A stretch of DNA of 32,869 nucleotides, from contig JAJZJU010000017.1 in NCBI GenBank assembly GCA_021809895.1, positions 1 through 32,869 of the forward strand. Reading direction: 5' to 3'. Every line of letters starts with the position of its first letter. Position 1 is the first letter of the stretch. This document shows, piece after piece, positions 1,326-20,908 of this stretch. The position numbers were made by a program, and so were the translations under genes. Below the pieces are notes generated by a model, which was not told where the DNA came from, did not search any database, and was given only the letters and a program-made list of their open reading frames with translations. Source of the stretch: a bacterium (GTDB lineage: Bacteria; Chloroflexota; Dormibacteria; Aeolococcales; Bog-877).

Positions 1326-2009
1326 TTGGATCTCGCCCAAGCGCCGTCGGGATTCTTCTACAACCATCCCCAAGCCGGCTTCTGCATCGCCATCAACTCC
1401 CAGATGACTCTGGGCAGACAGGTGTTCACCTTGGCCCATGAGTTCGCCCATGCCTTCTTCCACTCCCAGACGTCCGATGTCATCGTCTCGATGCCAGGTG
1501 CGGACCGCGTTCGCGAGCGCTTCGCAGATGCCTTCGCGGGGGAGTTCCTGGTGCCTGGCGACGAGTTGCGCCGGGTGGTCGGTGAGCTTGAGCATTTCGA
1601 TAACCTGGACAACCCGTCGCTGGTGGTGCACCTGCAACGACACTTCGGCGTGAGCTTCGCCACCATCCGCGTGCGTCTCCTGCATGAAAGGCTGCTCAGC
1701 CAGAGCGCCTACGACGCCCTGGCTGAGGCTTCACCCAGCCGGCTGGCGCGCGCGCTGGGCTACCGCGTCCATCCCGCGGACATGGGTAGCTACGATCTCC
1801 ATCCCCTCGAATCCCAGCCGGCTCGGGTACTGCTGCTCGTGCGCCATGCCCTGGAGCGGTCCGCGATCACGACCGGCGATGCCGCGGAGATGCTTGGTAC
1901 CAGCACAGAGGAGATCCGCCAACTCCTGGCCCAGCCGGTGGCCGGCGAAGGAGAGCGCCGCGCCCAGCAGGACCTCGAGGACGCCGCGTTCGCCAACCGA
2001 GAGCGGTGA
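1326..2009 (+). CDS. ImmA/IrrE-family metallo-endopeptidase, apparently lacking the usual N-terminal HTH (5' truncated?)
   Basis: Zinc protease motif FTLAHEFAHAFFHS, with RFADAFAGEFLVP following (COG2856/ImmA-IrrE pattern). The frame stays open upstream (DEHVLIWRLPLGLDLAQ) without an HTH or clear start. Confidence 0.82.
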   Translation: MDLAQAPSGFFYNHPQAGFCIAINSQMTLGRQVFTLAHEFAHAFFHSQTSDVIVSMPGADRVRERFADAFAGEFLVPGDELRRVVGELEHFDNLDNPSLVVHLQRHFGVSFATIRVRLLHERLLSQSAYDALAEASPSRLARALGYRVHPADMGSYDLHPLESQPARVLLLVRHALERSAITTGDAAEMLGTSTEEIRQLLAQPVAGEGERRAQQDLEDAAFANRER

Positions 2010-2508: not shown

Positions 2509-2700
2509 CGACCTCGACCCGGCCCAGCGGGGTCGGCGGCCGGAGCTGCCGAGTGATCTGCCATGCCCGAGATGGGGACAGATACCAAGGGACTCTGCCC
2601 GCAAGGGCTGGGTCGGCTCTGGCCCGGAGCCCAAGCGCCTGGCAACCCCGATCTCCGTGCGGCCGGATACTAGCGATGAATATGAACTCTCCGGTTGTGA

Positions 2701-2706
2701 TATAAT
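2701..2706 (+). promoter_or_regulatory. -10 box TATAAT, 6 nt before ATG at 2713 (leaderless promoter candidate)
   Basis: gttgtgaTATAATcggatcATG. Confidence 0.65.
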
Positions 2707-2712
2707 CGGATC

Positions 2713-3300
2713 ATGAATGAACAACCTCCGTCCGCTCCGCAACGAGGAACTGGCCTGGCGTTCGTCCAGCACTGGGATTGGGTGGCAGAGAAGGGCCTGA
2801 TGCCACAGGCCACGGCTCGCGCCTACCGAGCTGCCGTTTCCCAGATCCTCAAGATTGACGATGGTTGGGAGGACCGGGAAGTGCAAGGGCTCGATGTCGA
2901 CGCCCTCATCTCGCGCTTCCGGAACCTATCGTCTCTCTCCCCCACCAGCCTAAGCACCTATGAGTCCCGATTCCGGTCGGCCCTAGCCTCGTACGTCAGC
3001 TATCTTGAGAATCCGGCATCCTACCAACCCCGGGGACGCAGGAACACCCCCGGCGGGGATGGCAAGAGGCCAAAGGACAAGGGGAAGAAGGAGCCAGAAG
3101 CTGGTCCTCGAGACGCCGCTGAGCCGTCCACTGAGGTGGCCACCCCCGCCGCCAGGTTGGTCGTGTACCCGTTCCCGGTCCGACAGGATCTGTTCGCCGA
3201 GCTCAAGCTCCCCGCGGATCTCTCCTTGGACGAGGCCCGCCGGCTCGGTAGGTTCCTGGAGGCCGTCGCCCTGAGCGACCCCGGAAGCAGTGGCACGTAG
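2713..3300 (+). CDS. phage-integrase N-terminal (SAM-like)-type protein with conserved C-terminal LVVYPFPVRQDLFAELKLPADLSLDEARRLGRFLEAVAL segment; first gene of HigBA-like operon
   Basis: N-terminal AFVQHWDWVAEKGLMPQATARAYRAAVSQILKI...LSPTSLSTYESRFRSALASYVSYLENP resembles a tyrosine-recombinase core-binding domain, but there is no catalytic domain; directly overlaps the downstream toxin gene. Confidence 0.7.
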   Translation: MNEQPPSAPQRGTGLAFVQHWDWVAEKGLMPQATARAYRAAVSQILKIDDGWEDREVQGLDVDALISRFRNLSSLSPTSLSTYESRFRSALASYVSYLENPASYQPRGRRNTPGGDGKRPKDKGKKEPEAGPRDAAEPSTEVATPAARLVVYPFPVRQDLFAELKLPADLSLDEARRLGRFLEAVALSDPGSSGT

Positions 3301-3721
3301 CTCCGCCGTGGAGGGGTCCGGGCGGACGCGAAGGCAATGGCGGTTCTACCGCACGGCCAGCGGACAGGAGCCGGTACGGGAGTTCCTCTGGGACCGACAC
3401 CTACCCGATGAGGACGCGGCCGCCATCGCCGCGGTCATGACTGAGGTACGCAACGCCGGCCGGGCGCATCCCGATGTCAACCATCTTCGAGGTGACATCT
3501 GGCAGTTAGAGATCCGGGGCCGGTCCGCCATCTACCGGTTGCTCTTCGCGGAGGAGGGGCGGTACCAGCAGGTGCTCCTGGCGCTGGAGGTGGTCAATCA
3601 AAAGTGGCAGAAGGCGAAGGGCCGGCACATCGAGCTGGCGGAGAAACGGCTCGCAGATTGGCGCGAGCGAGGGACGCGGCGGACGCCGTCTAGGTCGACC
3701 ACGGCACCGCTGCCCAAGTGA
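3290..3721 (+). CDS. higB-like: RelE/HigB-type toxin (phage Gp49-like family)
   Basis: QWRFYRTASGQEPVREFLWDRHLPDEDAAAIAAVMTEVRNAG...HLRGDIWQLEIRGRSAIYRLLFAEEGRYQQVLLALEVVNQKWQKAKGRHIELAEKRLADW; overlaps the 3' end of the preceding gene; followed by an XRE antitoxin. Confidence 0.85.
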   Translation: MARSSAVEGSGRTRRQWRFYRTASGQEPVREFLWDRHLPDEDAAAIAAVMTEVRNAGRAHPDVNHLRGDIWQLEIRGRSAIYRLLFAEEGRYQQVLLALEVVNQKWQKAKGRHIELAEKRLADWRERGTRRTPSRSTTAPLPK

Positions 3722-3739
3722 TGGGCGAGCCCGAACCAT

Positions 3740-3757
3740 CATATCGCGGGGGATATG
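3740..3757. promoter_or_regulatory. inverted repeat CATATC-N6-GATATG upstream of HigA-like antitoxin (autoregulation operator candidate)
   Basis: Perfect 6-bp arms, abutting a -10-like TAACAT at 3759-3764. Confidence 0.5.
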
Positions 3758-3773
3758 GTAACATTGTCGCGCG

Positions 3774-4118
3774 ATGGCCAAGCGAGACGACCTGGACGCC
3801 TTCATCGCTGCCCGCACGGCGATGAACCCCGACTTCCCCGAGCTGCTGCAAGCGGAGTTGGAGACCCGTCGATTGGTTCTTGAACTGGCTGCGGAGCGGG
3901 AACGGCAGGGCCTCAGCCAAGAGCGGGTGGCCGCTGCTCTAGGCACCAAGCAGCCAAACGTGGCTCGTCTTGAGCGTGGCGGTGTCGATCCCAAGCACAG
4001 CAGCTTGGTCCGGTACGCCAGCCTCCTCGGATGGCACATCACTCTGGAGCCGCTCAAACGAGCACCGACCAGGCCGGTTGGTGGCGAGCGCCGCAAACGG
4101 GGCGCACCAGTCCGCTGA
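3774..4118 (+). CDS. higA-like: XRE-family HTH antitoxin (HigA-like)
   Basis: ...LVLELAAERERQGLSQERVAAALGTKQPNVARLERGGVDPKHSSLVRYASLLGWHITLEPL: classic XRE HTH, downstream of HigB-like toxin. Confidence 0.88.
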   Translation: MAKRDDLDAFIAARTAMNPDFPELLQAELETRRLVLELAAERERQGLSQERVAAALGTKQPNVARLERGGVDPKHSSLVRYASLLGWHITLEPLKRAPTRPVGGERRKRGAPVR

Positions 4119-5126: not shown

Positions 5127-5537
5127 TCACGAAAACCATGTCGCGACCTCCGAGGCAAGCCTACGCCTGTTCCTGCGGTACTGGGCCAAGCGGCCCCCAA
5201 AGGCAGGGCTGGGGTGGGGGAATCCGAGCAGACAGCGGTCCTCCTCCAGGAGGTTCAGGTCGACGAGGAGTTCGACGGCGTCCTGGGCCGCCCTCCCCAG
5301 GGGGATGACCAGGGCATCACGCACCATCCCGAGCTGGGCTCCAAGACTGGCCACGACCAGAGATCGGAGCAGGGGGTGCCTGATGAGCGGCGGCCTATGG
5401 CCGGTGTAGTTCTGACCTCGGAAGAAGACCGGGTAGCTGATGGCAGAGACACAGGCGACGAGCCGATGCTCATCGGTGAAGAGCTGCTCAGTGGTGTCAA
5501 GGTCCAGCCCCCGGTCAAGACCGATGCCATCCAGCAT
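5127..5537 (-). pseudogene. C-terminal part of a second UDG-superfamily-like protein, N-terminus lost at repeat R1 boundary
   Basis: ...ISYPVFFRGQNYTGHRPPLIRHPLLRSLVVASLGAQLGMVRDALVIPLGRAAQDAVELLVDLNLLEEDRCLLGFPHPSPAFGGRLAQYRRNRRRLASEVATWF resembles the C-terminal half of UDG-like proteins (GFPHPS motif); homologous part begins exactly at the R1 repeat edge. Confidence 0.5.
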
Positions 5538-5694
5538 GGAGGGTGGCAGGGACCGTTCCTCCACGCTCAGCGGAACCAAGTCCTGCGTTGCGGGTCGCCC
5601 CGAACGGTCGTGACCCACGTGGTCGCCCCGAGGTTCCCGCTGGGCCGGTTGGGTCCTCTGCCGCGGGTGCGGCTGCCCTCTGGCCTTGTGGGGT
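5534..5694. repeat. repeat R1 copy 1 (161 bp)
   Basis: gcatggagggtggcagggaccgttcctcc...ctctggccttgtggggt; near-identical at 20552-20712, shorter at 14974-15106. Confidence 0.9.
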
Positions 5695-6279
5695 CGGAGT
5701 TCGCTCGTGGTCGAGGAGGGCTGCCGACCCCGCCGGCCCCTGCTTATTGGGGTTGGCGGGTGTGTGATGGTTCCGGCGGCTCGCTCACGAGGTGGGAGCG
5801 GCCAGGGCCGGTTGGCTGCCACCGAGCGCCCCCGCCCGGCCACCTCCGCCCGCCCCGGGAGATCGGCCGGCACATCTGCCTCCAGCTGCTCGTGCGGGGC
5901 GCCCTAGGCCCCGGCCCACTGCCGCCGGCGTTGAGGGCGGGTAGCGGAGGGCGGCGGTGTCCAACACGCTCCCGGAATGGTCACCGCCCCCCACGGATCC
6001 CCCCTCCCCAGGGACCGCCGCCCTCCCAATCCCCGGAGCCCGCCAAGGAAAGGGCGAAAGTGCTGCCAGGGGATGGGCCGGCCACTGTCGGCCGCTCTCA
6101 CCCGCCGGACCACCTGCGGGAGCACTCGAATTAGAGGGAGGGTGCCTTAGCCGTCGCCCACAGCTCGCCCGCCAGCAAGGAGAGATTCGGCCCCGGTCGT
6201 GGCCGAGCCCCGGGGCCCTTTGGCACGCTCCTTGGCATGGGAACTAAGGTCGGCGTCACTTTCCGACCTCGTTCCCCGG

Positions 6280-6655
6280 TCAGGCAGGGAGCGCCAGCGG
6301 CAGGCGGAAGCGGGGCAACCAGCTGCTCTCGAAGCCGGTGACTGCGGAGACCTGTCCCCCACTGAGCTCGAGCACTAGGAGGCTGACGGCTGGCCGGGCG
6401 CCGCCGTGAAGGTAGGCACCAAACGCCAGCTGACCATTGGCTCGCATGGTGGGGACCAGTTCATACGCCCATCGGCCGCCAGCAAAGATGGCGGCGAAGA
6501 AGCTGGCGGCAGCCTCGCGGCCCTGGTACTGGAGGGGGACTGGGGGCATGGGTACCAGGACGTCGGTGGTGAGGAGGGAGATGAGGCCCTCGGCATCGCC
6601 GGCCTGATACGCGCTGACGAACCGGGCCGCCAGCGCCTGTTCGGCGGGCGAGCCG
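6280..6655 (-). pseudogene. orphan C-terminal SnoaL-like domain of an ECF sigma factor (duplicate of 15520-15892)
   Basis: SPAEQALAARFVSAYQAGDAEGLISLLTTDVLVPMPPVPLQYQGREAAASFFAAIFAGGRWAYELVPTMRANGQLAFGAYLHGGARPAVSLLVLELSGGQVSAVTGFESSWLPRFRLPLALPA; near-identical to the C-terminus of the full gene at 15520-16521; sigma domains missing. Confidence 0.85.
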
Positions 6656-6709: not shown

Positions 6710-7123
6710 TTACATGGCCCTGGCGACGAGCACGCCAACCCTCTGGTAGGTGCCCAGGGCGCGAGCGTCGCGGGTGGCCAGAGGAACCCCGTTGTCGGCC
6801 GCAGCCAGGGCGACCAGCGCATCGTAGACGGCGCCTCCTGCGATCCCAAGCTGGCTCAGCAGCTGTGGCAGCCGGCGGGCTGTCTCATCGCCCATGAGAA
6901 GCGGGGGGGCGAACCGCTCGGCCAGCAGCCCAGCCGCGTCGCTGGGATTCAGCCGCAGGTCACCGGGCAGGCGGGTCAGCACCGCGTAGGTCTCCGCCAG
7001 CGCATGTCCGGCCAGAGCAACCGCCCTTTTGTCCCACCAGCGCACCACCTCCAGGTGGGCGGCATGGGTCCTCACCAGCAGCGGCACCGCCACGCTGGTG
7101 TCGATTGCCAGGGCAGAGGTCAC
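6710..7123 (-). CDS. vapC-like: PIN-domain toxin (VapC family)
   Basis: [15 protein letters not shown]...[15 protein letters not shown]...[39 protein letters not shown] acidic residues; overlaps upstream AbrB-type gene. Confidence 0.88.
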
Positions 7124-7356
7124 CGCCGTCCTTGGTCTATCAGCCCGAAAACGGTCTCGTCGTCAATCTTGGTCTTCCCGGTCACGACCCTGACCCCAGC
7201 GTCGTCGACCAGCCGGGCGGAGCGTGAGACAGGCACCAGCGTCAGCCCCTCCCCGTACCGGGAGATGTCCACCTTGGACCCTGGTCTCAGTCCCAGGCTG
7301 TCGCGCAGCGGCTTGGGGACGACGACCCGGCCGACGGCATCGATGGTGGCCTTCAT
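7120..7356 (-). CDS. vapB-like: AbrB/MazE-type (SpoVT-AbrB) antitoxin
   Basis: [43 protein letters not shown]: swapped-hairpin AbrB signature. Confidence 0.9.
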
Positions 7357-7362
7357 GGGAAA

Positions 7363-7368
7363 AGGATA
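7363..7368 (-). promoter_or_regulatory. -10-like TATCCT, 6 nt before ATG (leaderless promoter candidate)
   Basis: Minus strand: ggTATCCTtttcccATGaag. Confidence 0.5.
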
Positions 7369-7605
7369 CCAGCCAGCTCCCAGTTGCGGCCCCAAAGCGG
7401 GCTCCCGGCCGGGCCACCACGGTGCTCCTTCGTCCGGCTCCTGTGGCGGGCTGCTCCGCTCCCGAGCTGAGTGGTGGTAGAGGTATACCCTGCGCTGGTG
7501 CTGCGCAGACGGGGTCTCCCCCACCGAAGCTACAAGGCGCGAGTGAACAGGAACCGTCTCAAGGAGTTCCTAACTGCCCTTTGATTCAAGGCGCCCTGGC
7601 TGATT

Positions 7606-7806
7606 GTGACCGGGGACCAGTGGACGCTGCTCAGCAGCGACGACAACTGTGCCGGTGCCCTGACCGCGAGCCTGGTGGCCAGGTCATCGGCGTTGGGCCC
7701 GTGCGATCCGATTCCGCCGGACCAGATGGTCCACGCCCGGCGGGAAGGGTGGATTGCGGTGCCCCGAGCCGACGGTCTTTCCCAGCTCGGCGCGGTTCCG
7801 GACTGA
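7606..7806 (+). CDS. small hypothetical ORF (66 aa)
   Basis: VTGDQWTLLSSDDNCAGALTASLVARSSALGPCDPIPPDQMVHARREGWIAVPRADGLSQLGAVPD; strong third-position GC, no family recognised. Confidence 0.3.
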   Translation: MTGDQWTLLSSDDNCAGALTASLVARSSALGPCDPIPPDQMVHARREGWIAVPRADGLSQLGAVPD

Positions 7807-7943
7807 GGCGGCTCGGCCGTCAGTCTCAAGGAAGCCAGTCGCGGGGCAATCTCACTCCAGCTCCGTCAGCAGCTGCTCCAGGCCCGGACCAACACCCGGG
7901 CAGTCAGGCTCAGCGGCGTCCAGCAAGTCCCCATCCAGGCTGG

Positions 7944-8861
7944 TCAGCTGGCCGCCTTGAAGAGTTGATAGCGCTCGCGCAGGAACTCGGCCCGGGGCCG
8001 GTCTGCCTCGGCCCGCGGCACCACCATAAGCAACCTGCCGTGGAGGTCCTGCAACCCGTGTCGCAGCATGGGCCCGTCGATCTCATCAAGGACATCGTGC
8101 CGAATCTCGAGGACGGAGTCCGGGCGGATCCCCACGATGTTGCGATCGAAGGCGGCGTGATGGAGCTTGCACAGGGCAAGCCCGTTGGCTGTGATCGGCT
8201 CACCTGAGGGGTGACCGTCAGGCAGGATGTGGGCGGCATCCAAGAGGTCCGCATGGTGGAGACGACACATCGCACATGACTCTCGATAGGCACGAAGGAC
8301 TCGATGGCGGAAGGCGACCTGATGAAGCCGCTGGCGGGCCAGGCGAGTCACGTACGCCCGCCGCGCCACATCGGGTAATTCGTAGGCAGGGTCAACATCG
8401 CTGGCCAAGGGGTCATCCACCGCCACGGTGAACGTAAGTCTTAGAGGGTCATCCCCAACAATGAAGACCGGCCATTCGGGGAGGTACTGCCCAGGTTCGA
8501 CGCCGTGGAAGTAGATGAGCGGCAGCTGGAGCCGCATAATCTCGCGGAGGCCGCGATTGTCGCGATGGTCGGGGTCAGATCCCCGGTATCTGTATTGCAG
8601 CAGACCGTCTCCGCCGAGTTCGTCCTGATATGGCCTGGCCTTGCCGGCAACCATAGGTACGGAGGTGATACTCAGTGGGAGTTCGAGCACTGCCGGCTTG
8701 AAGATCCCCTGGGGGCCCATCAGCGGGACGCGGCGGCCCTCATAAGAGAAGCCCGCACTGAGCTCGGTCGAGGGCAGAACCTCGCCGTAGCGGAGCGTGA
8801 GCCGCCCAAGAAACTCGAAGGCAGCTGCGCGGATCCGGCTATCGGTCGAATCTCCAGCCAT
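7944..8861 (-). CDS. HNH endonuclease (predicted restriction endonuclease, COG3440-like) with N-terminal putative modified-base/PUA-like domain
   Basis: C-terminal RAYRESCAMCRLHHADLLDAAHILPDGHPSGEPITANGLALCKLHHAAFDRNIVGI is an HNH signature; N-terminal GIFKPAVLELPLSITSVP...YRYRGSDPDHRDNRGLREIMRLQLPLIYFHGVEPGQYLPEWPVFIVGDDP. Confidence 0.82.
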   Translation of the reverse strand: MAGDSTDSRIRAAAFEFLGRLTLRYGEVLPSTELSAGFSYEGRRVPLMGPQGIFKPAVLELPLSITSVPMVAGKARPYQDELGGDGLLQYRYRGSDPDHRDNRGLREIMRLQLPLIYFHGVEPGQYLPEWPVFIVGDDPLRLTFTVAVDDPLASDVDPAYELPDVARRAYVTRLARQRLHQVAFRHRVLRAYRESCAMCRLHHADLLDAAHILPDGHPSGEPITANGLALCKLHHAAFDRNIVGIRPDSVLEIRHDVLDEIDGPMLRHGLQDLHGRLLMVVPRAEADRPRAEFLRERYQLFKAAS

Positions 8862-9080
8862 GGTGGAGATTCTGCACCTGCGTCAATCACCAGTGCCAGG
8901 CTGGACCCAGCTGCGGATGGACGATCTCTCCGGTCTCTGGCCTCGCCGGGATTTACCGGGACGGCTCGGCGACACAGCAATAGCCGACGCGCCAACGCTC
9001 AGCGCGCCAGCATCGCTCCCAGGCCACCTATCTGGCAGCCGCCACGCCGAGCCATCCCCGCGGATCGCGGAGGACGTGAA

Positions 9081-9114
9081 GATCCCCGGGCTGGACCCGA
9101 AGCGACCGGGGATC
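9081..9114. terminator. inverted repeat GATCCCCGG...CCGGGGATC downstream of SHMT-like gene
   Basis: 9-bp perfect arms, no U-tract. Confidence 0.35.
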
Positions 9115-9152
9115 CGCTTTGCCGCTCGAGTCGCAAGGCAGTCAATTGGCCG

Positions 9153-10505
9153 TCAGTCGAAACAGTACTGCAGGCGCGGAAACGCGGCACGCAGCGCCCG
9201 CGCCCGATCCGCCAGCCCCTCCGGGGCCCGCCGCTCCACCAGGACCGCAGCGATGACATCGGCAATCTCCATCATCTCGGCACGACCCATCCCGTAGCGG
9301 GTTACCTCGGTGGTTCCAATACGCAGCCCCGAGGGACGTTCCCAGTTCTCGCGGCGATCCCAGGGAAGCAGGTTCTTGTTGGTGATCACGTTGGCCCGGG
9401 CCAGAAGTTGAGCGGACTCCAGCCCGCCGCCCAGGGTAGAGACGTCGGCGATCACCTGGTGCGTGTCGGTGTAGCCTCGGTGTCCGCCGAGAACGGGCAC
9501 TCCGCACGCCTCCAGCGCCGCCGCCAAGGCCCTCGCGTTAGCCACGATCTCTGCCATCAGCGGCCGGCCGAAGGCCAGCAGCTCGCAGGCCGCCGCAGCC
9601 AGCGCCGCCACTCGATTCACCTGGTGGGTCGCCGCCAGGGTCGGAAACACCGCCTCGGCCAGGGGCCCGGTCAACCGGTCATCGTTCCACACCATGACCC
9701 CGCTCTGCGGCCCGCAGAAGGTCTTCCCCCCCGACCCCGTCACCACCGCCGCTCCCTCCTTGAGAGGGTCCTGGAACTGGCCGCCGGCGATCAGCCCCAA
9801 CTGGTGCGCGCCGTCGAAAAACACCCTCCCACCCCACTCACCCACCACTGTCGCCATCTCAGAGACCGGATATGGGAAGAGCGTCATCGAAGCGCCCAGC
9901 GCGACCAAGACCGGGCGTTCGCGACGGGCGACCTCGGCGAAGGACTCCAGATCGACCGACAGATCCTCGGGGTCGACTGGGATGTCGACTATGCGCAGCC
10001 CGCGCACCCCAGCCGGGCCATCCGACCGGTTGCTGGAGTGGCCGCCAACCGGCTGGGCCAGGCTCATGATCGTCTCGCCAGGCCGGGCCAGGGCCGTATA
10101 GACCGCCAGGTTGCCGATCATGGATGCGCAGAGGCGGTGCTCGGCGTAGTCGCAGTCGAACAGTCGCTTCAGCAATTCCATGCAAAGCGACTCCACCTCG
10201 TCGATGTGGCGAGTCCCGGCGAACCAGCGGTTGACCGGGCCGATATGCCCCTCAGCAGCCCGGGTGCCAATCTCCGAGCCGAGCAGCGCTCTCACCGTAG
10301 AGCTCGTCGGTGCCTCGGGAGCCAGCAGGTTCAGGCACTGCTCCCCCCTCCAGAGCTCGTTGCGCCGGACAGCGGCGACCACCTCCGCCTGCATGGCGGC
10401 GGGGTTGGAGCACCTCTCGATCACGGACCGCGCCGCTCGCAGGACCTCCCGATCATGCACCTCCACCCGTCCCTCATAATCGCTGCGGTCGCCTGTCTCA
10501 GTCAC
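9153..10505 (-). CDS. SHMT-like PLP-dependent enzyme (divergent glycine hydroxymethyltransferase paralogue)
   Basis: ...GEWGGRVFFDGAHQLGLIAGGQFQDPLKEGAAVVTGSGGKTFCGPQSGVMVWND...; whole-length fold_type I/SHMT organisation but altered PLP-lysine motif. Start placed at GTG 10505 because the upstream extension overlaps a dispersed non-coding repeat. Confidence 0.8.
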   Translation of the reverse strand: MTETGDRSDYEGRVEVHDREVLRAARSVIERCSNPAAMQAEVVAAVRRNELWRGEQCLNLLAPEAPTSSTVRALLGSEIGTRAAEGHIGPVNRWFAGTRHIDEVESLCMELLKRLFDCDYAEHRLCASMIGNLAVYTALARPGETIMSLAQPVGGHSSNRSDGPAGVRGLRIVDIPVDPEDLSVDLESFAEVARRERPVLVALGASMTLFPYPVSEMATVVGEWGGRVFFDGAHQLGLIAGGQFQDPLKEGAAVVTGSGGKTFCGPQSGVMVWNDDRLTGPLAEAVFPTLAATHQVNRVAALAAAACELLAFGRPLMAEIVANARALAAALEACGVPVLGGHRGYTDTHQVIADVSTLGGGLESAQLLARANVITNKNLLPWDRRENWERPSGLRIGTTEVTRYGMGRAEMMEIADVIAAVLVERRAPEGLADRARALRAAFPRLQYCFD

Positions 10506-10525
10506 GCTGCACCTCCACGAGCCCA

Positions 10526-10695
10526 GGAAACACCACCTCTCTCCGCCCGGTCCGGCCAACCAACACCGAATGGCTCACCGTGCCACCGCGTCCGGCGGCG
10601 CCAGCCGTCTTCGGGCCGAGGACCATTGTGCCGCCCCTGATCTCATGGGTCCAGGAAGTCGGTGCCGACTCACCAGCGCGCCAATCACATCTGGA
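10526..10695. repeat. dispersed non-coding repeat R2, copy 1 (degenerate)
   Basis: gaaacaccacctctctccgcccggtccggcc...cctgatctcatgggtccaggaag...gcgcgccaatcacatctgg matches 25075-25240 in the same order. Confidence 0.5.
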
Positions 10696-11413
10696 TCAGG
10701 CGCATGGGCGCGCCGACACCATCCCCTGCCCGCGTCCGAGATCCTGAGGCAGATCAGAGCCAGCCACCGCAAGCAGGCGTGCCCAGCCTTGGAAGTGACA
10801 CCCCTTCACCGCCCTGGAGCGGCCCGCTCGCCATCCCCAGGGGAACCTCCGCCAGTCCCGGCAGAGGGTGCTGGGTGCGCGCTGGGCGGCAGTTCGCGGC
10901 CCGGTGCCGAACTCTTCGCATGGACTTGACCGGCGCCAGCCGCAAGTAGTCGGGGACAGGCGCCGAAGATGCTCCTGACGCTGCCCATTTGCCGCCATCG
11001 CGCGTGCGGGGCTGCTGGCCATCCCCGCATTCCAGCGAGATCGCCCTCCAGATCACCGGCGCCGTGCCGGCGACAAGGGCACCACGGGCAAGAGAGCATG
11101 GGCCGACTGCGGGCCCCTCACCCACCGGAGCAGAGGCAGCCACGCTCGAAGTCGAACGGCGTAGCGGCTGCACTCCTCCACAGTTCGCCAGCCTGCGCGC
11201 TGAACTCAGGGTCGATCACGTGGCCCACCACCCTGGTCATCACCAACTGGTTGGCGTAGGCCGCCGGCAGAGGTACATTTGGGCTATGGGAACCGAGATA
11301 GCAACCGATCCAGCAGGCGAATCAGGATCAGCAACGGCGCCGACCATGGCCGCGGTCGATGCCCCGCCCATGCTTCCTGCGGGGCTGCCGCACCCGGTCG
11401 GTCCCCGGCTCAT

Positions 11414-11438
11414 GGTCGAAAAGGGGCCCTTCTCGACC
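11414..11438. promoter_or_regulatory. 25-bp near-perfect palindrome GGTCGAAAAGGGGCCCTTCTCGACC
   Basis: 12-bp arms with 11/12 complementarity around a single centre base. Confidence 0.5.
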
Positions 11439-11623
11439 AAGACGGTGGCGGTTTACCCAGGCGGCACGCAAGCCCATGAGGCCGGCCCCAGCGACTGAGC
11501 GCTGAGCCGGGCGGCCAGGCCAGCCTTGGTCGAGGCCAGGCAAGCGATCGGTTCCAGACCCGCCACCGCCCCAACTTTCTTGGTGGCGCTGGTGGGATAG
11601 AAGTCGGGAGCCGGCCGGCACCA

Positions 11624-12170
11624 CGACCAGCCTCAGCACCTACGAGTCCCGATTCCGCTCGGCCCTGCCCTCATACGCCAGCTATCTTGAAAACCCGGCC
11701 TCGTACGAACCCCGGGGACGCAGGAATACCTCACGCGGGGATCGGACACGGCCAAAGGGCAACGGGATGGAAGAGACAGAGACTGGTCCTGAAGAGGCCG
11801 CTGGGCCATCCCCTGACCCGCCCGCCGCTGCTGCCAGATTGGTCGTGTATCCGTTCCCGGTGCGACAGGACCTGTTCGCCGAGCTCAAGTTGCTGGCTGA
11901 CCCCTCCTTTGAGGAGGCGCGCCGACTGGGTCGGTTCCTGGAGGCCGTCGCCCTGACCGACGCCGCAAGTAGTGGCGAGTAGCTCCTCCAGCCAACACTC
12001 CCGTCAGGCCCGAAGGCAGTGGCCCTTCTACCGCACGGCCAGCGGAAACGAGCCGATCCGGGACTTCCTCTGGGACCGGCACATGCCCGACGAGGATGCG
12101 GCCGCAATCACCTCGGTCATGACCGAGGTACGCCATGCGGGCCGAGGACATCCCGGCGTCAACCACCTTT
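11624..12170 (+). pseudogene. degenerate second copy of integrase-N-like C-terminus + HigB N-terminus (paralogue of 2946-3490)
   Basis: accagcctcagcacctacgagtcccgattccgctcggcc...LVVYPFPVRQDLFAELKLLADPSFEEARRLGRFLEAVALTDAASSGE, then QWPFYRTASGNEPIRDFLWDRHMPDEDAAAITSVMTEVRHAGRGHPGVNHL, ending abruptly. Confidence 0.88.
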
Positions 12171-12232
12171 TGAACGGCCCTGCCGCCCTGGCTCGACGGC
12201 GGGGACGGCAGGCCCGAGGTAGCCCCAACCAA

Positions 12233-12814
12233 TCAAAGCAGGCGGCGGACCTCGTCGACAAACATCGGCACGCTGGCGCGCCGCAGACGGTTGAGCAGAT
12301 CGTCAACCGAGAGGGCGGGATTGCGAGTGTCGCCAGCCTGCTCTTGGATCACGTTGACAACCACCTGCGGCGCCAGGTCCAACTGATCCAGCAAGAAGGC
12401 GTCCGCATCACTCACCTCGATGTCAAACTCCGCGACCGCGGTGGCCGGGAAATCTTCCCGGTTGTTGGTGACAATGATGCCGGCTGAGCCGCGGATCGCA
12501 GATGCGAGCACATGCCGATCATCTGGATCGGGCAGGACCAGGCCGGGCTCAAACCGCTCCCAACCCACCACCAGGGCGTCCTCAAAGGCGGCCGCCATGG
12601 CAGCGAATCTGTCCAGGAATTGCTCGGAAGGTATTTCTGGGTGCACCACCTGCAAGGCCGCCACCGCCTCGTCCACGATCCGCTGCGACCACAGGGGGCG
12701 ATAGAGGTTGCACTCGGCGATACGCAGCAGAGTATCGGCCAGCGAGATCGGGACCAGAACACAAGCATCGAGAAGGGCCGCGTATGGCGCGGTGCTCAAG
12801 TTAGGTTCGGGCAC
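12233..12814 (-). CDS. PIN-domain toxin (PIN_3-like)
   Basis: VPEPNLSTAPYAALLDACVLVPISLADTLLRIAECNLYRPLWSQRIVDEAVAAL...LPDPDDRHVLASAIRGSAGIIVTNNREDFPATAVAEFDIEVSDADAFLLDQLD; GTG start overlaps the antitoxin stop. Confidence 0.82.
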   Translation of the reverse strand: MPEPNLSTAPYAALLDACVLVPISLADTLLRIAECNLYRPLWSQRIVDEAVAALQVVHPEIPSEQFLDRFAAMAAAFEDALVVGWERFEPGLVLPDPDDRHVLASAIRGSAGIIVTNNREDFPATAVAEFDIEVSDADAFLLDQLDLAPQVVVNVIQEQAGDTRNPALSVDDLLNRLRRASVPMFVDEVRRLL

Positions 12815-13313
12815 GGCCTGACAACTTACGGCGGGCCTCTTGCAGGGCGGCCTCGTAGTCCTCGGCCGACCTCTCGTACAAACCGAGCTCGCTCGCCTCG
12901 GTGGTGAGGCGCCCGAGCGCATCCTTGCGATCTGAGCGCCGGCTCGACTGATAGGACAGAAGGTCCAGAAGGCCCACGCGCCGATGCCGCCCGGGTCGGT
13001 CGAAGGGGATCTCGCCGGCTTCCAGAAGCTTCACCAGGGTAGGCCTGCTGATACCGAGAAAGTTGGCCGCCTGCTGGGTGGTGAGTCGCTGGGTAGTCGG
13101 TGCCAGACTGATCGCCTTGCCGCCGCGCATGGCATCCACCACCTGAACCAGCACTTGGTAGACCTCGGGGGGCAGCAGCACCCGCTCCCCGTTGGGGCCG
13201 ACCAGACGGGCTGGCTCGCCGTGGGTCTCCACGAAACGCGCCAGCTGACCCAGGGACTGGAGATCCTGGGGCGGAAAGATTACGTCGCGCCGGACGGTCG
13301 TGTCGGTGGTCAT
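12801..13313 (-). CDS. helix-turn-helix (excisionase-type) antitoxin partner
   Basis: ...APTTQRLTTQQAANFLGISRPTLVKLLEAGEIPFDRPGRHRRVGLLDLLSYQSSRR: excisionase/MerR-like HTH; Shine-Dalgarno AGGAGGA before ATG at 13313. Confidence 0.85.
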   Translation of the reverse strand: MTTDTTVRRDVIFPPQDLQSLGQLARFVETHGEPARLVGPNGERVLLPPEVYQVLVQVVDAMRGGKAISLAPTTQRLTTQQAANFLGISRPTLVKLLEAGEIPFDRPGRHRRVGLLDLLSYQSSRRSDRKDALGRLTTEASELGLYERSAEDYEAALQEARRKLSGRART

Positions 13314-13365
13314 CTCCCAGTCCTCCTGCAAGCCTGGTGGCTCTTCCACTGCCAGGTTAGCAGGG

Positions 13366-13392
13366 TATCGCAATAATCGCAAATATCGCAAT
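13366..13392. promoter_or_regulatory. three 9-bp tandem direct repeats TATCGCAAT/AATCGCAAA/TATCGCAAT upstream of HTH-PIN operon
   Basis: Read directly; the 9-bp spacing places all copies in register. Confidence 0.65.
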
Positions 13393-13624
13393 CGGCGAAA
13401 GCTAGGTCCGGTCGAGCGTGCACCGACCACCCTAATCTCGCTGATCTCGCCCGTCGGCCTCGGCTGAAACCACGGGCCACCGTCCGATGTAGGTATCTCG
13501 CGCAAGATGTCAGCAAGCGCGGAACGAGGGAACGAACCGGACCCGCCGGTCCGGGCAGCAGGAGGATCATCGGCCAACGGCCGATGGTGCTACACCGTCA
13601 TACGAGGTCGGACAGAGCCTCACA

Positions 13625-14009
13625 TTCCGTACCCGGCCGAACGTCCTGGAACAGCTCCAAGAGCAGGCCAAGCACGTTCACCTGCCCAAGATTGTCCTGG
13701 CCGAGCGCTACGTCTAGGAGGGACTGGCGGTGGACCAATTCCCGGGATGTGTTCCGGGGCGGCGCTCTGGGACGCCGGCCCGGCCTCAGCTGCGGACCCG
13801 ATGTGTGGGAGGTAGTAGAGATCTTCCGGGCCGAGTCCCGAGACCTTGCCGCGACCGCCCAGAAGCGGGGGCGCCCCCAAGCCGATCCTCGTGACCGGGT
13901 GCCGGCCAGGTTGCACATACAGATGGCCAAGCTCGAGCCGGAACTGGACCCGGCCAAGAAGTTGATCGAGATCCAGTCAGAACTTGCCGCGGCCTTGGGG
14001 GCTCGTTAG
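13625..14009 (+). pseudogene. decayed RHH-type antitoxin gene (in-frame amber + frameshift)
   Basis: Frame 1: FRTRPNVLEQLQEQAKHVHLPKIVLAERYV*EGLAVDQFPG; continues in another frame: VFRGGALGRRPGLSCGPDVWEVVEIFRAE. Confidence 0.6.
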
Positions 14010-14289
14010 CGAGAGCGCGGAGAGTGGGCAGCCATGATGGTCTACAGCACCGCCACGGAGTTGGCGCCGCTTGGTGGGCACCGAGGGAGCGCGCCAGGCG
14101 GTGGGCCGAGCCCGAGCCACCTAATGCCGCCGCACCCGGCCTCCTGATCCCAGGCCCCTGGGAAACCCGCCGCCTGTCGGCGTGAGAGCTGGCGCCAGGT
14201 GGTAACGAGGCGACGTGGCTCCGGGTCTGGGGCCTCAGGACGACCCTGGACCACACTCCCCTTCCGGGAGGCGGCTCCCCGGCCCCTGG

Positions 14290-14647
14290 TCACAACCCCG
14301 GTGGTGGCAGCTCGCTTGGGGAGGCGATCTGCGGGATCCGCGGATCGACCACCACTGTCCCGACATCATCGAAGTCGCGCACATTGCGGGTCGCCATCGC
14401 GGCGCCCCGGGCCCGGCCGGTCGCAGCGATCTGACCGTCGGCGATGCCCATCGGACGGCCGGTGCAGGAGCGACCGGCCACGATCTCCGCGTGGTGCGAG
14501 GCCGCGGTGCTGTCAAAGGCGATCACCTGTCCCCCCAGCTCATCGTTGATGATCGCTCGGATGCCCTCGGCGAGCCGGGACCTACGGGCACCATCGGGCA
14601 GTCTGGCGCGCCAGTTCCGAGATGACATTGGTGTCCAGGATGATCAT
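14290..14647 (-). pseudogene. VapC/FitB-like PIN toxin copy 1, frameshifted by 95-bp deletion
   Basis: Near-identical to 19766-20218 but lacks the segment equivalent to ~20079-20173, at a CTGGCG direct repeat. Confidence 0.85.
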
Positions 14648-14886
14648 TTTTCGAAATCAGCCGCGCGCGTCAGCTCGGTCCGGGGCGGGAACCTGATCTC
14701 GTCCAGGCCCAGACCGACCAGACGCTGGTGGATTCGACTGCCGACACCACGCGGCCGCGCCGACGCCAGCGACCCACGCAGGATTTCACGAGCCTCGGCC
14801 TCCATCGAGCGTCCGTGCTGCGCCGCTCTGATCGGAAGCCGCTCCTTGGTGTCGTCGACGAGCTTGCGTACGGTTAGGGTCGACAT
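14644..14886 (-). CDS. VapB/FitA-like RHH antitoxin copy 1
   Basis: MSTLTVRKLVDDTKERLPIRAAQHGRSMEAEAREILRGSLASARPRGVGSRIHQRLVGLGLDEIRFPPRTELTRAADFEK; Shine-Dalgarno AGGAGG. Confidence 0.85.
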   Translation of the reverse strand: MSTLTVRKLVDDTKERLPIRAAQHGRSMEAEAREILRGSLASARPRGVGSRIHQRLVGLGLDEIRFPPRTELTRAADFEK

Positions 14887-14973
14887 CGATCGCCTCCTGG
14901 AACTGACGGCAGCGCTGTCACTGCTAGCATCGCAGGAAGTTTCCTCTACGGCTCTTCCCCCGGGAAGGCCGGG

Positions 14974-15106
14974 GCATGGAGGGTGGCAGGGACCGTTCCT
15001 CCACACTGAGCGTAACCAAGGACCGCGTTGCAGGTCGCCGCGAGGTTCCCGCTGGACCGGTTGGGTCCTCTGCCGCGGGTGCGGCTGCCCTCTGGCGGTG
15101 TGGGGT
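14974..15106. repeat. repeat R1 copy 2 (133 bp, internal 28-bp deletion)
   Basis: Aligned by eye to 5534-5694 and 20552-20712; lacks one unit of the GGTCGCCCCGA direct repeat plus spacer. Confidence 0.9.
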
Positions 15107-15148
15107 TGGCGTTCGCTCGTGGGCGAGGCGGCCTGCCGACCCCGACCT

Positions 15149-15176
15149 CGCCAGCCCCTGCCAATTGGGGTTGGCG
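15149..15176. repeat. GC-rich hairpin CGCCAGCCCC/GGGGTTGGCG (hairpin family member D)
   Basis: 10-bp stem with one G-U; paralogous to 5729-5760. Confidence 0.5.
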
Positions 15177-15519
15177 GGTGGGTGGCGGAGGGCGGCGGTC
15201 TCCAACACGCTCCACTGAATAGTCACGGCCCCCACGGGTCCCCCCTCCCCAGGGACCGCCGCCCTCCCAATCCCCGGAGCCGGCCAAGGAAAGGGCGACG
15301 GTGCTGCCGGGGGCTGAGCCGGCCACTGTCGGCCGCTCTCACCCGCCCGACCACCTGCGGGAGCACTCGAATTAGAAGGAGGGTGCCTTAGCCCTCGCCC
15401 ACAGCTCGCCCGCCAGCAAGGAGAGATTCGGCCCCGGTGCTGGCCGAGCCCCGGGGCCCTTTGGCACGCTCCATGGCCCGGGAACTAAGGTCGGCGTCAC
15501 TTTCCGAGCTCATCCCCGG

Positions 15520-16521
15520 TCAGGCAGGGAGCGCGAGCGGCAGGCCGAAGCGGGGCAGCCAGCTGCTCTCGAAGCCGGTGACAGCGGAGACCTGTCCCCC
15601 GCTGAGCTCGAGCACGAGGAGGCTGACGGCGGGCCTGGCGCCGCCGTGAAGGTAGGCGCCAAACGCCAGCTGACCATTGGCTCGCACGGTGGGGACCAGT
15701 TCATACTTCCATCGGTCCCCGGCAAAGATGGCGGCGAAGAAGCTGGCGGCGGCCTCGCGGCCCTGGTACTGGAGGGGGATTGGGGGCATGGATACCAGGA
15801 CGTCGGTGGTGAGCAGGGAGATGAGACCCTCGACATCGCCGGCCTGATATGCCCTGACGAACCGGGACGCCAGCGCCTGTTCGGCGGGCGAGCCCGCGGG
15901 TGGCGCGACCTCGCGGTCTCCCGGACGCAGCTGGAGGTGCAGACGGGCACGCGCCCGCTTGAGGGCGCTGTTGACCGACGCGATGGTCGAGTCGAGGAGG
16001 TCGGCCACCTCCCCGGCGTGATACCCAAGGACATCGCAGAGGATGAGCGCGGCGCGCTGGCGCGCAGGCAGCCGCTGCAGCGCCGTCACGAACGCCAGCG
16101 AGATGGCTTCGGTCTGTTCGTAGCGAGCCTCCGGCCCGAGCTGGAGGTCGATCACGCCCTCGAAGAGCGCTTGCGGGTAGGGCTCCAGCCAGACGACCTC
16201 CCCGAGCCAGGTCGGCGGGGGCGGGTCGATCTCGGGCATCTGCCATTGGGCAGCCGGGCGCCGCTTGGCAGAACGCAGCGCGTTGAGGCACCGGTTGGTG
16301 GCGATGCGGTAGAGCCAGGTGCGGATCGAGGCCCGCCCGGTAAAACCATCCAACCCCTGCCAGGCGGCCAACAGGGTCTCCTGGAGCACGTCCTCAGCGT
16401 CCTGCAGGGAGCCCAGCATTCTGTAGCAATGGGCCCGCAGCTCCCCAAGGTGCGGCTCGGTGAGGTCTCGGAAAGCGTCGCCGTCCCCGAAGCGCGCTCT
16501 GGTCAGCAGCTCGGCCGCCAC
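15520..16521 (-). CDS. ECF-type RNA polymerase sigma factor with C-terminal SnoaL-like domain (SigX5/TIGR02960-like)
   Basis: LTEPHLGELRAHCYRMLGSLQDAEDVLQETLLAAWQGLDGFTGRASIRTWLYRIATNRCLNALR (sigma2), LPARQRAALILCDVLGYHAGEVADLLDSTIASVNSALKRAR (sigma4), SnoaL-like C-terminus. Confidence 0.92.
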   Translation of the reverse strand: MAAELLTRARFGDGDAFRDLTEPHLGELRAHCYRMLGSLQDAEDVLQETLLAAWQGLDGFTGRASIRTWLYRIATNRCLNALRSAKRRPAAQWQMPEIDPPPPTWLGEVVWLEPYPQALFEGVIDLQLGPEARYEQTEAISLAFVTALQRLPARQRAALILCDVLGYHAGEVADLLDSTIASVNSALKRARARLHLQLRPGDREVAPPAGSPAEQALASRFVRAYQAGDVEGLISLLTTDVLVSMPPIPLQYQGREAAASFFAAIFAGDRWKYELVPTVRANGQLAFGAYLHGGARPAVSLLVLELSGGQVSAVTGFESSWLPRFGLPLALPA

Positions 16522-16707
16522 CTCAGCTCACCCCCGACGCTGGCTGCCGCACCACTCCGACTGCTCGCCTGCCTCCACGCTTGCACATGCAAAGCAGCAG
16601 ACCGCCCAGTTTCCGCACCGTCCGGTGTCTATACCCTCGATGGCCCGGTCGCTCCGGGCACCGCGGGGCCTGACTGCCCAGTAAATCTGACCCAAGGAGG
16701 GAGAATC

Positions 16708-17151
16708 ATGGATGACCAGAGTTATACCACCTCATTTACGGTGGACCAGAGTCCGGAGGAGGTCTTCTCCGCCATCAACAATGTCCGCGGATGGTGGGCA
16801 GGAGAGTTCGAAGGCGACACCGAGGAGCTGGGCAGTGAGTTCACCTATCGGTACGAGGACGTCCATTGGTCCAAGCAGCGGATCAGCGAGTCCGTCCCGG
16901 GTCAACGGGTCGTCTGGCACGTCCTGGATGGCGAGCTCAGTTTCGTCGCCCAGAAGGACGAGTGGCGGGACACCGACATCGTCTTCGACATCACCAGGAG
17001 GGGCGCCCAGACCGAACTTCGCTTCACCCATGAGGGCCTGACTCCCCAGCGCGAGTGCTTCCACAGCTGTACAGACGCCTGGGGCTTTTTGGTCAACCAG
17101 AGCCTGAGGAGCCTGATCACCACCGGCAAGGGCCAGAGGCCTGATTGGTAG
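16708..17151 (+). CDS. SRPBCC (AHSA1/START-like) domain protein
   Basis: MDDQSYTTSFTVDQSPEEVFSAINNVRGWWAGEFEGDTEELGSEFTYRYEDVHWSKQRI...GWGFL-type ending; SD aaggaggg; divergent from the sigma gene. Confidence 0.88.
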   Translation: MDDQSYTTSFTVDQSPEEVFSAINNVRGWWAGEFEGDTEELGSEFTYRYEDVHWSKQRISESVPGQRVVWHVLDGELSFVAQKDEWRDTDIVFDITRRGAQTELRFTHEGLTPQRECFHSCTDAWGFLVNQSLRSLITTGKGQRPDW

Positions 17152-17319
17152 CGGCCGGTGTGCATCTTGGAGTGCTTTCGCGCCGCTCGCTGCTCGCGCC
17201 GGCAGCCGTCGTCCCCCGGCGGGCTCCCGCTCGCCCAGCAGCGGCTGCGAGCCTCCCACCTACAGCCGCGCATGCCCGTGGCGCAGGCCCAGTCCAGCTC
17301 GGTGCTATCATGTCGCACT

Positions 17320-17562
17320 ATGAAGGTCGGAGTGCGTGAGCTGCGCAATCGCACCAACCAGGTGATAGAGGCCGTCCGCAGCGGTGAGCGCGTTACGCTC
17401 ACGGTCCGAGGCGATCCCGTGGCCGACATCGTGCCCCACGGCCAGCGCTACCGATGGCTGGCTGGCAATCGGCTGAGAAGCCAACTGGTACATCTGGCGG
17501 CGGACCCTGGCCTGCAGGCCGACCTGGATGAGATCGTCGGCCAGACCCTGGGAGACCTTTGA
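17320..17562 (+). CDS. Phd/YefM-type antitoxin
   Basis: MKVGVRELRNRTNQVIEAVRSGERVTLTVRGDPVADIVPHG: Phd/YefM signature; -10-like TATCAT at 17306-17311. Confidence 0.92.
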   Translation: MKVGVRELRNRTNQVIEAVRSGERVTLTVRGDPVADIVPHGQRYRWLAGNRLRSQLVHLAADPGLQADLDEIVGQTLGDL

Positions 17563-17966
17563 GCGCGGGGTCTGCGGGTCTCCTGGACACCTCGGTCTTC
17601 ATAGCCCGAGAGTCTGGTCGGCCCCTGGGGCCTCTCCCGGAGCGGGTGGCAGTGTCGGTGGTCACGATCGGCGAGCTGCAGCTGGGCGTCCTCAACGCTG
17701 GGGACTCAGCGGTTAGAGAGCGCCGGGCGGCCACCCTGGCGCTGGCTCGAACCGCCGACCCGCTGCCGGTCAGCGAGGCGATCATGGTCAGCTGGGCGCG
17801 CCTGGTGGCAGACTGTAGGGCCGCCGGAGTCCACAAGATGGTCAAGCTCACCGACTCTCTCATCGCCGCCACCGCCGTCGAGCATGGCCTCCCGGTCGTA
17901 ACCCAGGACTCCGACTACGACCAGATCTCAAGAGCCCACCCGTCCGTGACCGTGGTGAAGGTGTAG
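17559..17966 (+). CDS. vapC-like: PIN-domain toxin (VapC family)
   Basis: GLLDTSVFIARESGRPL...VVTIGELQLGVL...KLTDSLIAATAVEHGLPVVTQDSDYDQI; overlaps antitoxin stop. Confidence 0.92.
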   Translation: MSAGSAGLLDTSVFIARESGRPLGPLPERVAVSVVTIGELQLGVLNAGDSAVRERRAATLALARTADPLPVSEAIMVSWARLVADCRAAGVHKMVKLTDSLIAATAVEHGLPVVTQDSDYDQISRAHPSVTVVKV

Positions 17967-19011: not shown

Positions 19012-19260
19012 ATGAAGGTGAGCGTCAGCCTGCCCGAGGAGGACGTCGAGTTCCTGGACTCGTACGCCCAGTCGCAGAGCTTCCCCTCGCGGTCGGCGGT
19101 TCTGCACAAGGCAGTGCGACTGTTGCGCGGAGCAGAACTTAGCCCGGCATATGAGGACGCCTTCCTCGAATGGGAGCGTTCCGGGGAGGCGGCCGCCTGG
19201 GATGTGACCGCCTGGGATGTGACCGCCGACGAAGGTCTCAAGGCCGATGCTCCGGGGTGA
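19012..19260 (+). CDS. mazE-like: RHH antitoxin (MazE-like)
   Basis: MKVSVSLPEEDVEFLDSYAQSQSFPSRSAVLHKAVRLLRGAELSPAYEDAFLEWE; overlaps MazF-like gene. Confidence 0.9.
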   Translation: MKVSVSLPEEDVEFLDSYAQSQSFPSRSAVLHKAVRLLRGAELSPAYEDAFLEWERSGEAAAWDVTAWDVTADEGLKADAPG

Positions 19261-19594
19261 CATCCGGTTGGTCGATCTGGAACCGGTAAGGGGTGCGGAA
19301 GCCAACAAGCGCCGTCCGGCTGTGGTCGTGAGCAACGACGGCGCCAACGCCTCGGCCGTGCAGCTGGGACGGGGAGTGGTGACGGTTGTGCCGGTGACCT
19401 CGAGCATTGAGATGGTCCACCCGTTCCAGGTGCTCCTGCCGGCCCGGGCCACCGGCCTGCGCCAGGACTCCAAGGCGCAGGCGGAGCAGGTGCGCTCGGT
19501 CGCGGTGCAGCGCCTCGGGCCGCGGATCGGGAGCGTGCCGCCCGCCATCATGGAGAAGCTGGACGAGGCGCTTCGCCTCCATCTGTCCCTGTAG
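19247..19594 (+). CDS. mazF-like: MazF/PemK-family endoribonuclease toxin
   Basis: MLRGDIRLVDLEPVRGAEANKRRPAVVVSNDGANA...VVTVVPVTSSIEMVHPFQVLLPA...QVRSVAVQRLGPRIG. Confidence 0.94.
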   Translation: MLRGDIRLVDLEPVRGAEANKRRPAVVVSNDGANASAVQLGRGVVTVVPVTSSIEMVHPFQVLLPARATGLRQDSKAQAEQVRSVAVQRLGPRIGSVPPAIMEKLDEALRLHLSL

Positions 19595-19765
19595 CCTCCC
19601 CCCTCCCCAACCCGCCGCACCTAATCCCAGGCCCCCGGGAACCCGCCGCCTGTCGGCGTGAGACCTGGCGCCAGGTGGTAACGAGGCGCCGTGGCGCCGG
19701 GTATGGGGCCTCAGGACGGTCCGGGACCACACTCCTTTTCCGGGAGGCGGCTCCCCCGCCTCTGG

Positions 19766-20218
19766 TCACAACCCCGGTGGTGGCGGCTCGCTTGGGGAGG
19801 CGATCTGCGGGCTCCACGGATCGACCACCACTATCCCGACATCCTCGAAGTCGCGCACATTGCGGGTCGCCAGCGCGGCGCCCCAGGCCCGGCAGGTCGC
19901 AGCGATCTGACCGTCGGTGATGCCCATCGGACGGCCGGTGCGGGAGCGACCGGCCACGATCTCCGCGTAGTGCGAGGCCGCAGTGCTGTCAAAGGCGATC
20001 ACCTGTCCCCCCAGCTCATCGTTGATGATCGCTCGGATGCCCTCGGCGAGCCGGGACCTACTGGCGCCATCGGGCAGCCTGGCGACTCCGTAGAGCAACT
20101 CGGCGAGCGTCGTGGCGGTCACCGCCACCTCTTCCCGGTCATCGACAGAGGCCAGAACCTGCTGGTCGGGGGTCTGGCGCGCCAGTTCCGAGATGACATT
20201 GGTGTCCAGGATGATCAC
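19766..20218 (-). CDS. PIN-domain toxin (VapC/FitB-like), intact copy 2
   Basis: (V)IILDTNVISELARQTPDQQVLASVDDREEVAVTATTLAELLYGVARLPDG...GRPMGITDGQIAATCRAWGAALATRNVRDFEDVGIVVVDPW. Confidence 0.93.
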   Translation of the reverse strand: MIILDTNVISELARQTPDQQVLASVDDREEVAVTATTLAELLYGVARLPDGASRSRLAEGIRAIINDELGGQVIAFDSTAASHYAEIVAGRSRTGRPMGITDGQIAATCRAWGAALATRNVRDFEDVGIVVVDPWSPQIASPSEPPPPGL

Positions 20219-20457
20219 TTTTCGAAGTCAGCCGCGCGCGTCAGCTCGGTCCGGGGCGGGAACTTGATCTCGTCCAGGCCCAGACCGACCAGACGCTGGT
20301 GGATTCGACTGCCGACACCACGCGGCCGCGCCGGCGCCAGCGACCCACGCAGGATTTCGCGGGCCTCGGCCTCCATCGAGCGTCCGTGCTGTGCTGCTCT
20401 GATCCGAAGCCGCTCCTTGGTGTCGTCGTCGAGCTTGCGTACGGTTAGGGTCGACAT
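20215..20457 (-). CDS. VapB/FitA-like RHH antitoxin copy 2
   Basis: MSTLTVRKLDDDTKERLRIRAAQHGRSMEAEAREILRGSLAPARPRGVGSRIHQRLVGLGLDEIKFPPRTELTRAADFEK. Confidence 0.92.
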   Translation of the reverse strand: MSTLTVRKLDDDTKERLRIRAAQHGRSMEAEAREILRGSLAPARPRGVGSRIHQRLVGLGLDEIKFPPRTELTRAADFEK

Positions 20458-20551
20458 CGATCGCCTCCTGGACCTGACGGCAGCGCTGTCAATGCTACGC
20501 ATCGCAGGCAGTATCGTCTGCGGCTCTTTCCCCGGCAAGGCTGGGGCCGGG

Positions 20552-20712
20552 GCATGGAGGGTGGCAGGGACCGTTCCTCCGCGCTCAGCGGAACCAAGTC
20601 CTGCGTTCCGGGTCGCCCCGAACGGTCGTGAGCCACGTGGTCGCCCCGAGGTTCCCGCTGGGCCGGTCGGGTCCTCTGCCGCGGGTGCGGCTGCCCTCTG
20701 GCCTTGTGGGGT
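20552..20712. repeat. repeat R1 copy 3 (161 bp), ends at IS110-proximal sequence
   Basis: Near-identical to 5534-5694. Confidence 0.9.
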
Positions 20713-20908
20713 GGCAACTGGTGGCGGAGGAGTGAGCGGTAGTGCCGACAAGAGTGGTTGAGTGAACCTGGAAGAGGTTGCCGAGTAGGACTGGCGAGGT
20801 CAGGCTGTGGGTGATTGCCTTTGAGGGCACCCGCCGGCTAGTGCAAGACATCCCATGGCTGTAACTTGTCAAGTCCGAGCGGTCAACACGTACTGTTGTG
20901 CGCATATG

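Follow-up and report, generated by a model that had tools for sequence, protein, structure and literature searches.

The window analysed here is the whole stretch of 32,869 nt spanning positions 1-32,869 of contig JAJZJU010000017.1, forward strand. It carries three consecutive genes on the same strand (Table 1), the second of which starts inside the first with an overlap of 11 nt. The product of this second gene matched the Gp49 family of Pfam (PF05973, 8e-8, above the cut-off), and its nearest solved relative is M. tuberculosis HigB1 (2e-6). It is followed by an XRE helix-turn-helix antitoxin, and both proteins are typical of the Gp49 branch of HigBA. The next gene on the 3' side is on the opposite strand. 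A domain profile search detected no SecB-like chaperone in gene 1 or its neighbours. The three reading frames of the preliminary description were all recovered, together with the gene-1 tail that it quoted. We infer from this layout a three-gene type II toxin-antitoxin (TA) operon whose genes are probably co-transcribed; toxicity of HigB and its neutralisation by HigA are predicted from their families.

Table 1. Features of the three-gene operon and of its surroundings in the window.
Feature	Position	Strand	Remarks
Gene 1	2713..3300	+	ATG start, 195 aa; phrog_2602 match 2e-11
HigB/Gp49-type toxin (predicted mRNA interferase)	3290..3721	+	GTG start, 143 aa
HigA-type XRE antitoxin	3774..4118	+	ATG start, 114 aa; HTH_31 4e-9, HTH_3 5e-9
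Extended -10 promoter box TGATATAAT	2698..2706	+	sole TGNTATAAT in the window
Palindrome CATATCGCGGGGGATATG, candidate HigA operator, predicted internal higA promoter	3740..3757	+	recurs in G676 and G034
Degraded second copy, gene 1 and part of higB	11620..12178	+	74% protein identity
IrrE/M78 peptidase	1326-2009		
MazE-like + PIN	6710-7524		
HTH_17 + PIN_3	12233-13577		
FitA-like RHH + probable VapC	14290-15006		
Phd/YefM + PIN	17158-17966		
PemK/MazF	19247-19594		
FitA-like RHH + PIN	19766-20751		
PIN	23524-23922		
Probable IS110-type transposase gene	20909-22144	-	read from ORF

The motif TGNTATAAT is expected 0.01 times in the window and was observed once, directly 5' of gene 1. The transcription start predicted from it falls at about 2713, on the gene-1 ATG itself, and would yield a leaderless transcript. 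No good -35 element was found upstream of gene 1, where a sigma-70 scan listed nothing, and a terminator scan found nothing either. Between higB and higA, the palindrome CATATC-N6-GATATG is present in the window, in genome G676 and on contig C24 of G034, and the pattern CATATCNCGNNGGATATG gave three matches in 110 genomes, every one before this higA (reversed control, 0). Before gene 1, we found no site within 2 mismatches of the HigA palindrome and no recognisable repeated site. HigA is thus predicted to control its own internal higA promoter and not that of gene 1, and the upstream promoter does not obviously appear to be under HigA control. With the candidate HigA operator confined to the gap between higB and higA, a further regulator may be required at the upstream promoter. 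On contig C24 of G034 (L045, 1452-2021), an intact higA, 90% identical to that of the window, keeps the palindrome and stands just downstream of a VapBC-like pair with only a 3' higB remnant and no gene 1, as a solitary antitoxin.

The operon sits in a TA-rich island covering 1326-23922 of the window (Table 1), a crowding that makes neighbours less telling here. Repeats of 70-720 bp with 88-93% identity connect 5534-6654, the 14-16 kb region and 19610-20715, and include FitA-like RHH/PIN modules and a sigma-factor-like fragment. The island also holds a second, degraded copy of the operon, which comprises gene 1 from codon 76 onward and the first ~66 codons of higB, both ends having been lost. 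Over 544 bp this copy is 80.5% identical in DNA to the first, and it retains the gene 1-higB junction with the same higB GTG, at 11972. Contig JAJYPP010000041.1 (L003/G034; DS3.bin64), considered as a further occurrence, matches the window at 100% identity along at least 9991 bp (window 6986-16976). It gives no independent support because the same DNA sits in another bin; one contig is thus found in two genome bins, and the binning of the window contig is uncertain.

Gene 1 itself belongs to a rare family. It had no match in Pfam, NCBIfam or PADLOC, and matched the virus-derived family phrog_2602 nearly end to end (2.3e-11, profile positions 10-169 of 173). Its relatives matched the same profile, also over nearly the full length, at 1e-8 to 3e-10; phrog_2602 carries no description of function or neighbourhood. 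An AlphaFold2 model built on a 7-row alignment shows a four-helix N-domain (aa 14-99, pLDDT >90), a disordered linker (aa 109-145) and a beta-beta-alpha 'YPFP' tail (aa 149-187, pLDDT ~80); folded by itself, the N-domain reached a mean pLDDT of 90. With a pI of 5.7 the N-domain is acidic; basic character is confined to the linker. The PDB matches listed with a TM-score of at least 0.49 were all tyrosine recombinases or the C. leptum fragment 2kob, among them lambda Int (1z1g, 5j0n, 2oxo), the integron integrase VchIntI (2a3v) and Tn1549 Int (6emy), with Foldseek E-values >1 throughout. The modelled N-domain resembles the core-binding domain of tyrosine recombinases in its four-helix fold, with TM-scores of 0.5-0.6 for lambda Int (2oxo/1z1g) and VchIntI (2a3v). 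As all Foldseek E-values exceed 1, we claim a likeness of fold and leave homology unproven. Among the relatives, that of G237 matched Phage_int_SAM_5 weakly (0.087). In contrast to tyrosine recombinases, to which it has no significant sequence match, gene 1 carries a 40-aa beta-beta-alpha tail in place of a catalytic domain: the R-H-R-Y set is absent from its 195 aa and no Phage_integrase match was obtained. No helix-turn-helix or ribbon-helix-helix domain was matched in Pfam or NCBIfam, and the model consists of SAM-like helices and the beta-beta-alpha tail. The preliminary description had read the gene as a recombinase-like core-binding N-terminus lacking catalysis; the missing catalytic domain was borne out, and the core-binding assignment stands as a resemblance of the modelled fold to which Pfam is blind. 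The tail matched phrog_36396 (63 aa) weakly. In IMG/VR viral contigs we found only two short stand-alone YPFP proteins of 67-88 aa (L011, 3953-4219; L012, 3965-4168); since they consist of the tail alone, the YPFP tail constitutes a separate module.

In order to see where relatives of gene 1 occur, a 7-row profile was searched against the whole class (110 genomes), and other family profiles against hundreds more genomes of the phylum. The relatives are few and come mostly from fragmented draft genomes; they form six independent lineages. Beside the window, G676, from another family of the class, has gene 1, higB and higA in the same order, with higB and higA 72% identical to those of the window and gene 1 ~35%. 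An IS-type integrase-core gene abuts the gene-1 start there and may have cost gene 1 its native promoter. In G702, from a third family, gene 1 precedes HicA (PF07927, 1e-18) and HicB (PF15919, 3e-15), and the locus is flanked by housekeeping genes, one for a protein like 2-oxoglutarate dehydrogenase E1 and one for a Der-like GTPase, names that were read from ORF translations. An apparent frameshift in this gene 1 was dismissed, the split being a run of 14 N's at an assembly gap. In G108, where the contig ends within gene 1, the gene precedes PDC-M06A (6e-23) and PDC-M06B (2e-20). PADLOC has these two as a candidate defence pair, and their relatives on plasmids form the same two-gene unit; PDC-M06A is probably the toxin of this pair, judging by gene order and its small HicA-like sequence. 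The two remaining lineages have gene 1 alone, in G237 and, after a histidine kinase gene, in G085 and G298. Weak matches were discarded in G002 (an RHH-like antitoxin ORF) and in G367 and G125 (partial or broken).

A toxin-first pair hence lies directly 3' of gene 1, on the same strand, in four of the six lineages (HigBA in two, HicAB in one, PDC-M06A/B in one), with spacings of -11, -4, +24 and +24 nt. Under an assumed background rate of as much as 5% of genes, the chance of finding at least four of six before such a pair is ~1e-4. Eleven more distant HigB loci in this class all lacked gene 1. The preliminary description was right that an extra component accompanies the two-gene HigBA, an order that recurs in G676, and went too far in tying it to HigBA as such: whether homologues lie mostly away from HigBA receives a mixed answer, two lineages being at HigBA, two at other pairs and two alone. 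We consider the three-gene arrangement to be more than chance, because the order recurs in G676, gene 1 is under purifying selection (see below) and a unique promoter box lies 5' of gene 1. Recurrence before three kinds of pair suggests an add-on regulator and not a chance neighbour.

Gene 1 could also be a hitchhiker of phage origin that has its own function and accompanies TA pairs because both move on mobile DNA. This would agree with the viral origin of phrog_2602, the two stand-alone lineages, the integrase-core gene abutting the G676 operon and the TA- and IS-rich island of the window; Caulobacter HigX, which lies beside higBA and acts independently of it, provides a precedent (PMC13384398). 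Against it, four lineages have gene 1 immediately 5' of a toxin-first pair and on its strand, the pairs belonging to different families, and a tblastn search of 50,697 phages and 72,556 plasmids returned neither gene 1 nor a relative. The loci of G676, G702 and G108 do not have the look of a TA island. Overall, we regard mere co-travel as unlikely.

The second copy allowed selection to be estimated. As dN/dS between the two copies is ~0.32 for gene 1 (0.31 for higB), gene 1 has been under purifying selection. This bears on whether gene 1 is simply a leader ORF whose translation meters toxin synthesis by coupling, its protein being irrelevant. The overlapping or closely spaced starts would suit such a role, but gene 1 encodes a confidently folded, conserved two-domain protein, kept by purifying selection, and stand-alone members exist, which makes this the least probable of the explanations considered. 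The preliminary description had deduced probable translational coupling from the overlap; the overlap itself was confirmed, at 11 nt in the window and 4 nt in G676, and coupling is possible.

Between the window and G676, dN was 0.74 for gene 1 compared to 0.24 for higB and 0.22 for higA, so that gene 1 diverged about three times as much as its partners between two HigBA operons. This is not a steadily fast-evolving gene, as between copy 1 and copy 2 it changed no faster than higB. Moreover, the gene-1 tail of the window is 64% identical to that of PDC-M06-linked G108 and only 40% to that of HigBA-linked G676. The dN contrast and the nearness of the tail to G108 suggest that gene 1 may have been exchanged between operons; a tree test for such a swap was decisive only with C-terminal fragments included (AU p 0.005 with 7 sequences; p 0.36 with 5 full-length ones).

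These figures weigh on a role as co-antitoxin or chaperone, for which PasC and the SecB-like Rv1957 are models and in which gene 1 would bind HigB or HigA and aid neutralisation or folding. The cotranscription-like spacing and the disordered linker between two domains are compatible with it, and HigB1, the nearest solved relative of the toxin, belongs to a toxin-antitoxin-chaperone (TAC) operon (PMC3968373). However, a protein contacting HigB would not readily be expected to diverge so far beyond its partners or to have its closest tail at a PDC-M06 pair; no SecB match was obtained, and the toxin family changes among the partners of gene 1. A co-antitoxin or chaperone in contact with HigB has become less likely, and we judge this role quite improbable. 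Slightly less probable again is a sensor or trigger, in which the phage-like domain of gene 1 would respond to phage DNA or a phage protein, setting the toxin free, the operons being defence modules with an exchangeable sensor. The phage-type family, the PADLOC defence candidate among the partners and the divergence of gene 1 next to conserved toxin and antitoxin point in this direction; dN/dS below 1 and the small number of sequences argue against it.

We propose, with a probability of roughly 40%, that gene 1 leads a three-gene type II TA operon and encodes a distinct, exchangeable protein that regulates the promoter before it. This reading fits the observations best and is the most likely one, the function being deduced from sequence comparisons and gene order. 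The extended -10 promoter would give a leaderless transcript with gene 1, higB and higA. The core-binding-like helical domain would bind near 2650-2712, either to DNA or to a partner located there, and by repression or activation set the amount of toxin mRNA, translation of higB being possibly coupled to that of gene 1 through the overlap. A promoter of higA in the higB-higA gap, with the palindrome as operator, would supply antitoxin without toxin. Where the toxin gene comes first and the antitoxin has its own promoter, toxin transcription from upstream would have to be limited, and gene 1 is the candidate for this task, on the same principle as PaaR2 and omega but with a different protein. 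Such a sharing of tasks would be independent of the type of toxin, so that a gene 1 of this kind could also serve HicAB and PDC-M06AB. The absence of a classical DNA-binding motif in gene 1 and of a recognisable repeated site before it, the acidic N-domain, the two stand-alone lineages and the non-significant Foldseek E-values count against a regulator. A broader version, which we hold to be somewhat unlikely, would make gene 1 a family of exchangeable lead components for toxin-first TA and defence modules, which would use an integrase-derived helical domain to control or trigger HigB, HicA and PDC-M06A and might sense phages. If gene 1 is indeed such a regulator, a regulatory part of TA systems would be exchangeable independently of the toxin-antitoxin pair (across at least two established toxin types and a defence candidate), the family would serve as a marker for new toxin-first pairs, and the operon would show what toxin-first modules need to hold toxin below antitoxin.

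To our knowledge, type II TA operons that include a separate regulator as third component are not numerous, and each of them goes with a single type of toxin. An integrase-like first gene of a TA operon is not described in those portions of the literature covered by our search, and 'undescribed', as the preliminary description had put it for its candidate system, holds for these sources and for the libraries searched. HigB1-HigA1 of M. tuberculosis has in common with the present operon a Gp49-type toxin, an XRE antitoxin, the toxin-first order and a palindromic operator candidate; here an unrelated first gene is added, the candidate operator lies only before higA, and the chaperone gene of TAC operons is missing. 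The operon is not a TAC since it has no SecB-like gene. In Rv1954A-higB1-higA1-Rv1957, a small, apparently unrelated gene of unassigned function precedes higB1 (PMC3968373, PMC3912914), a likeness in position; Rv1954A is described as YjzC-like. Another lead gene of a HigBA operon is possibly seen in three genomes of one genus (L034, L035, L037), where a different ORF of 75 aa, downstream of a PanD-like gene, overlaps the higB start by 4 nt. The closest parallels in layout are operons led by a regulator. In paaR2-paaA2-parE2 of E. coli O157:H7, the putative regulator gene comes first of three and is predicted to be leaderless (PMC8630535); there the HTH belongs to PaaR2, a CI-like repressor, and PaaA2 lacks a DNA-binding domain, whereas here HigA matches HTH families and gene 1 does not. 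In omega-epsilon-zeta of pSM19035, the regulator gene is first and has its own, stronger promoter, with an internal promoter for the rest (PMC4803016), but all protein families differ and the antitoxin precedes the toxin. With neither HTH nor RHH, gene 1 is not a PaaR or omega protein; as first of three genes it occupies the position of these regulators, and a regulatory role is predicted for it.
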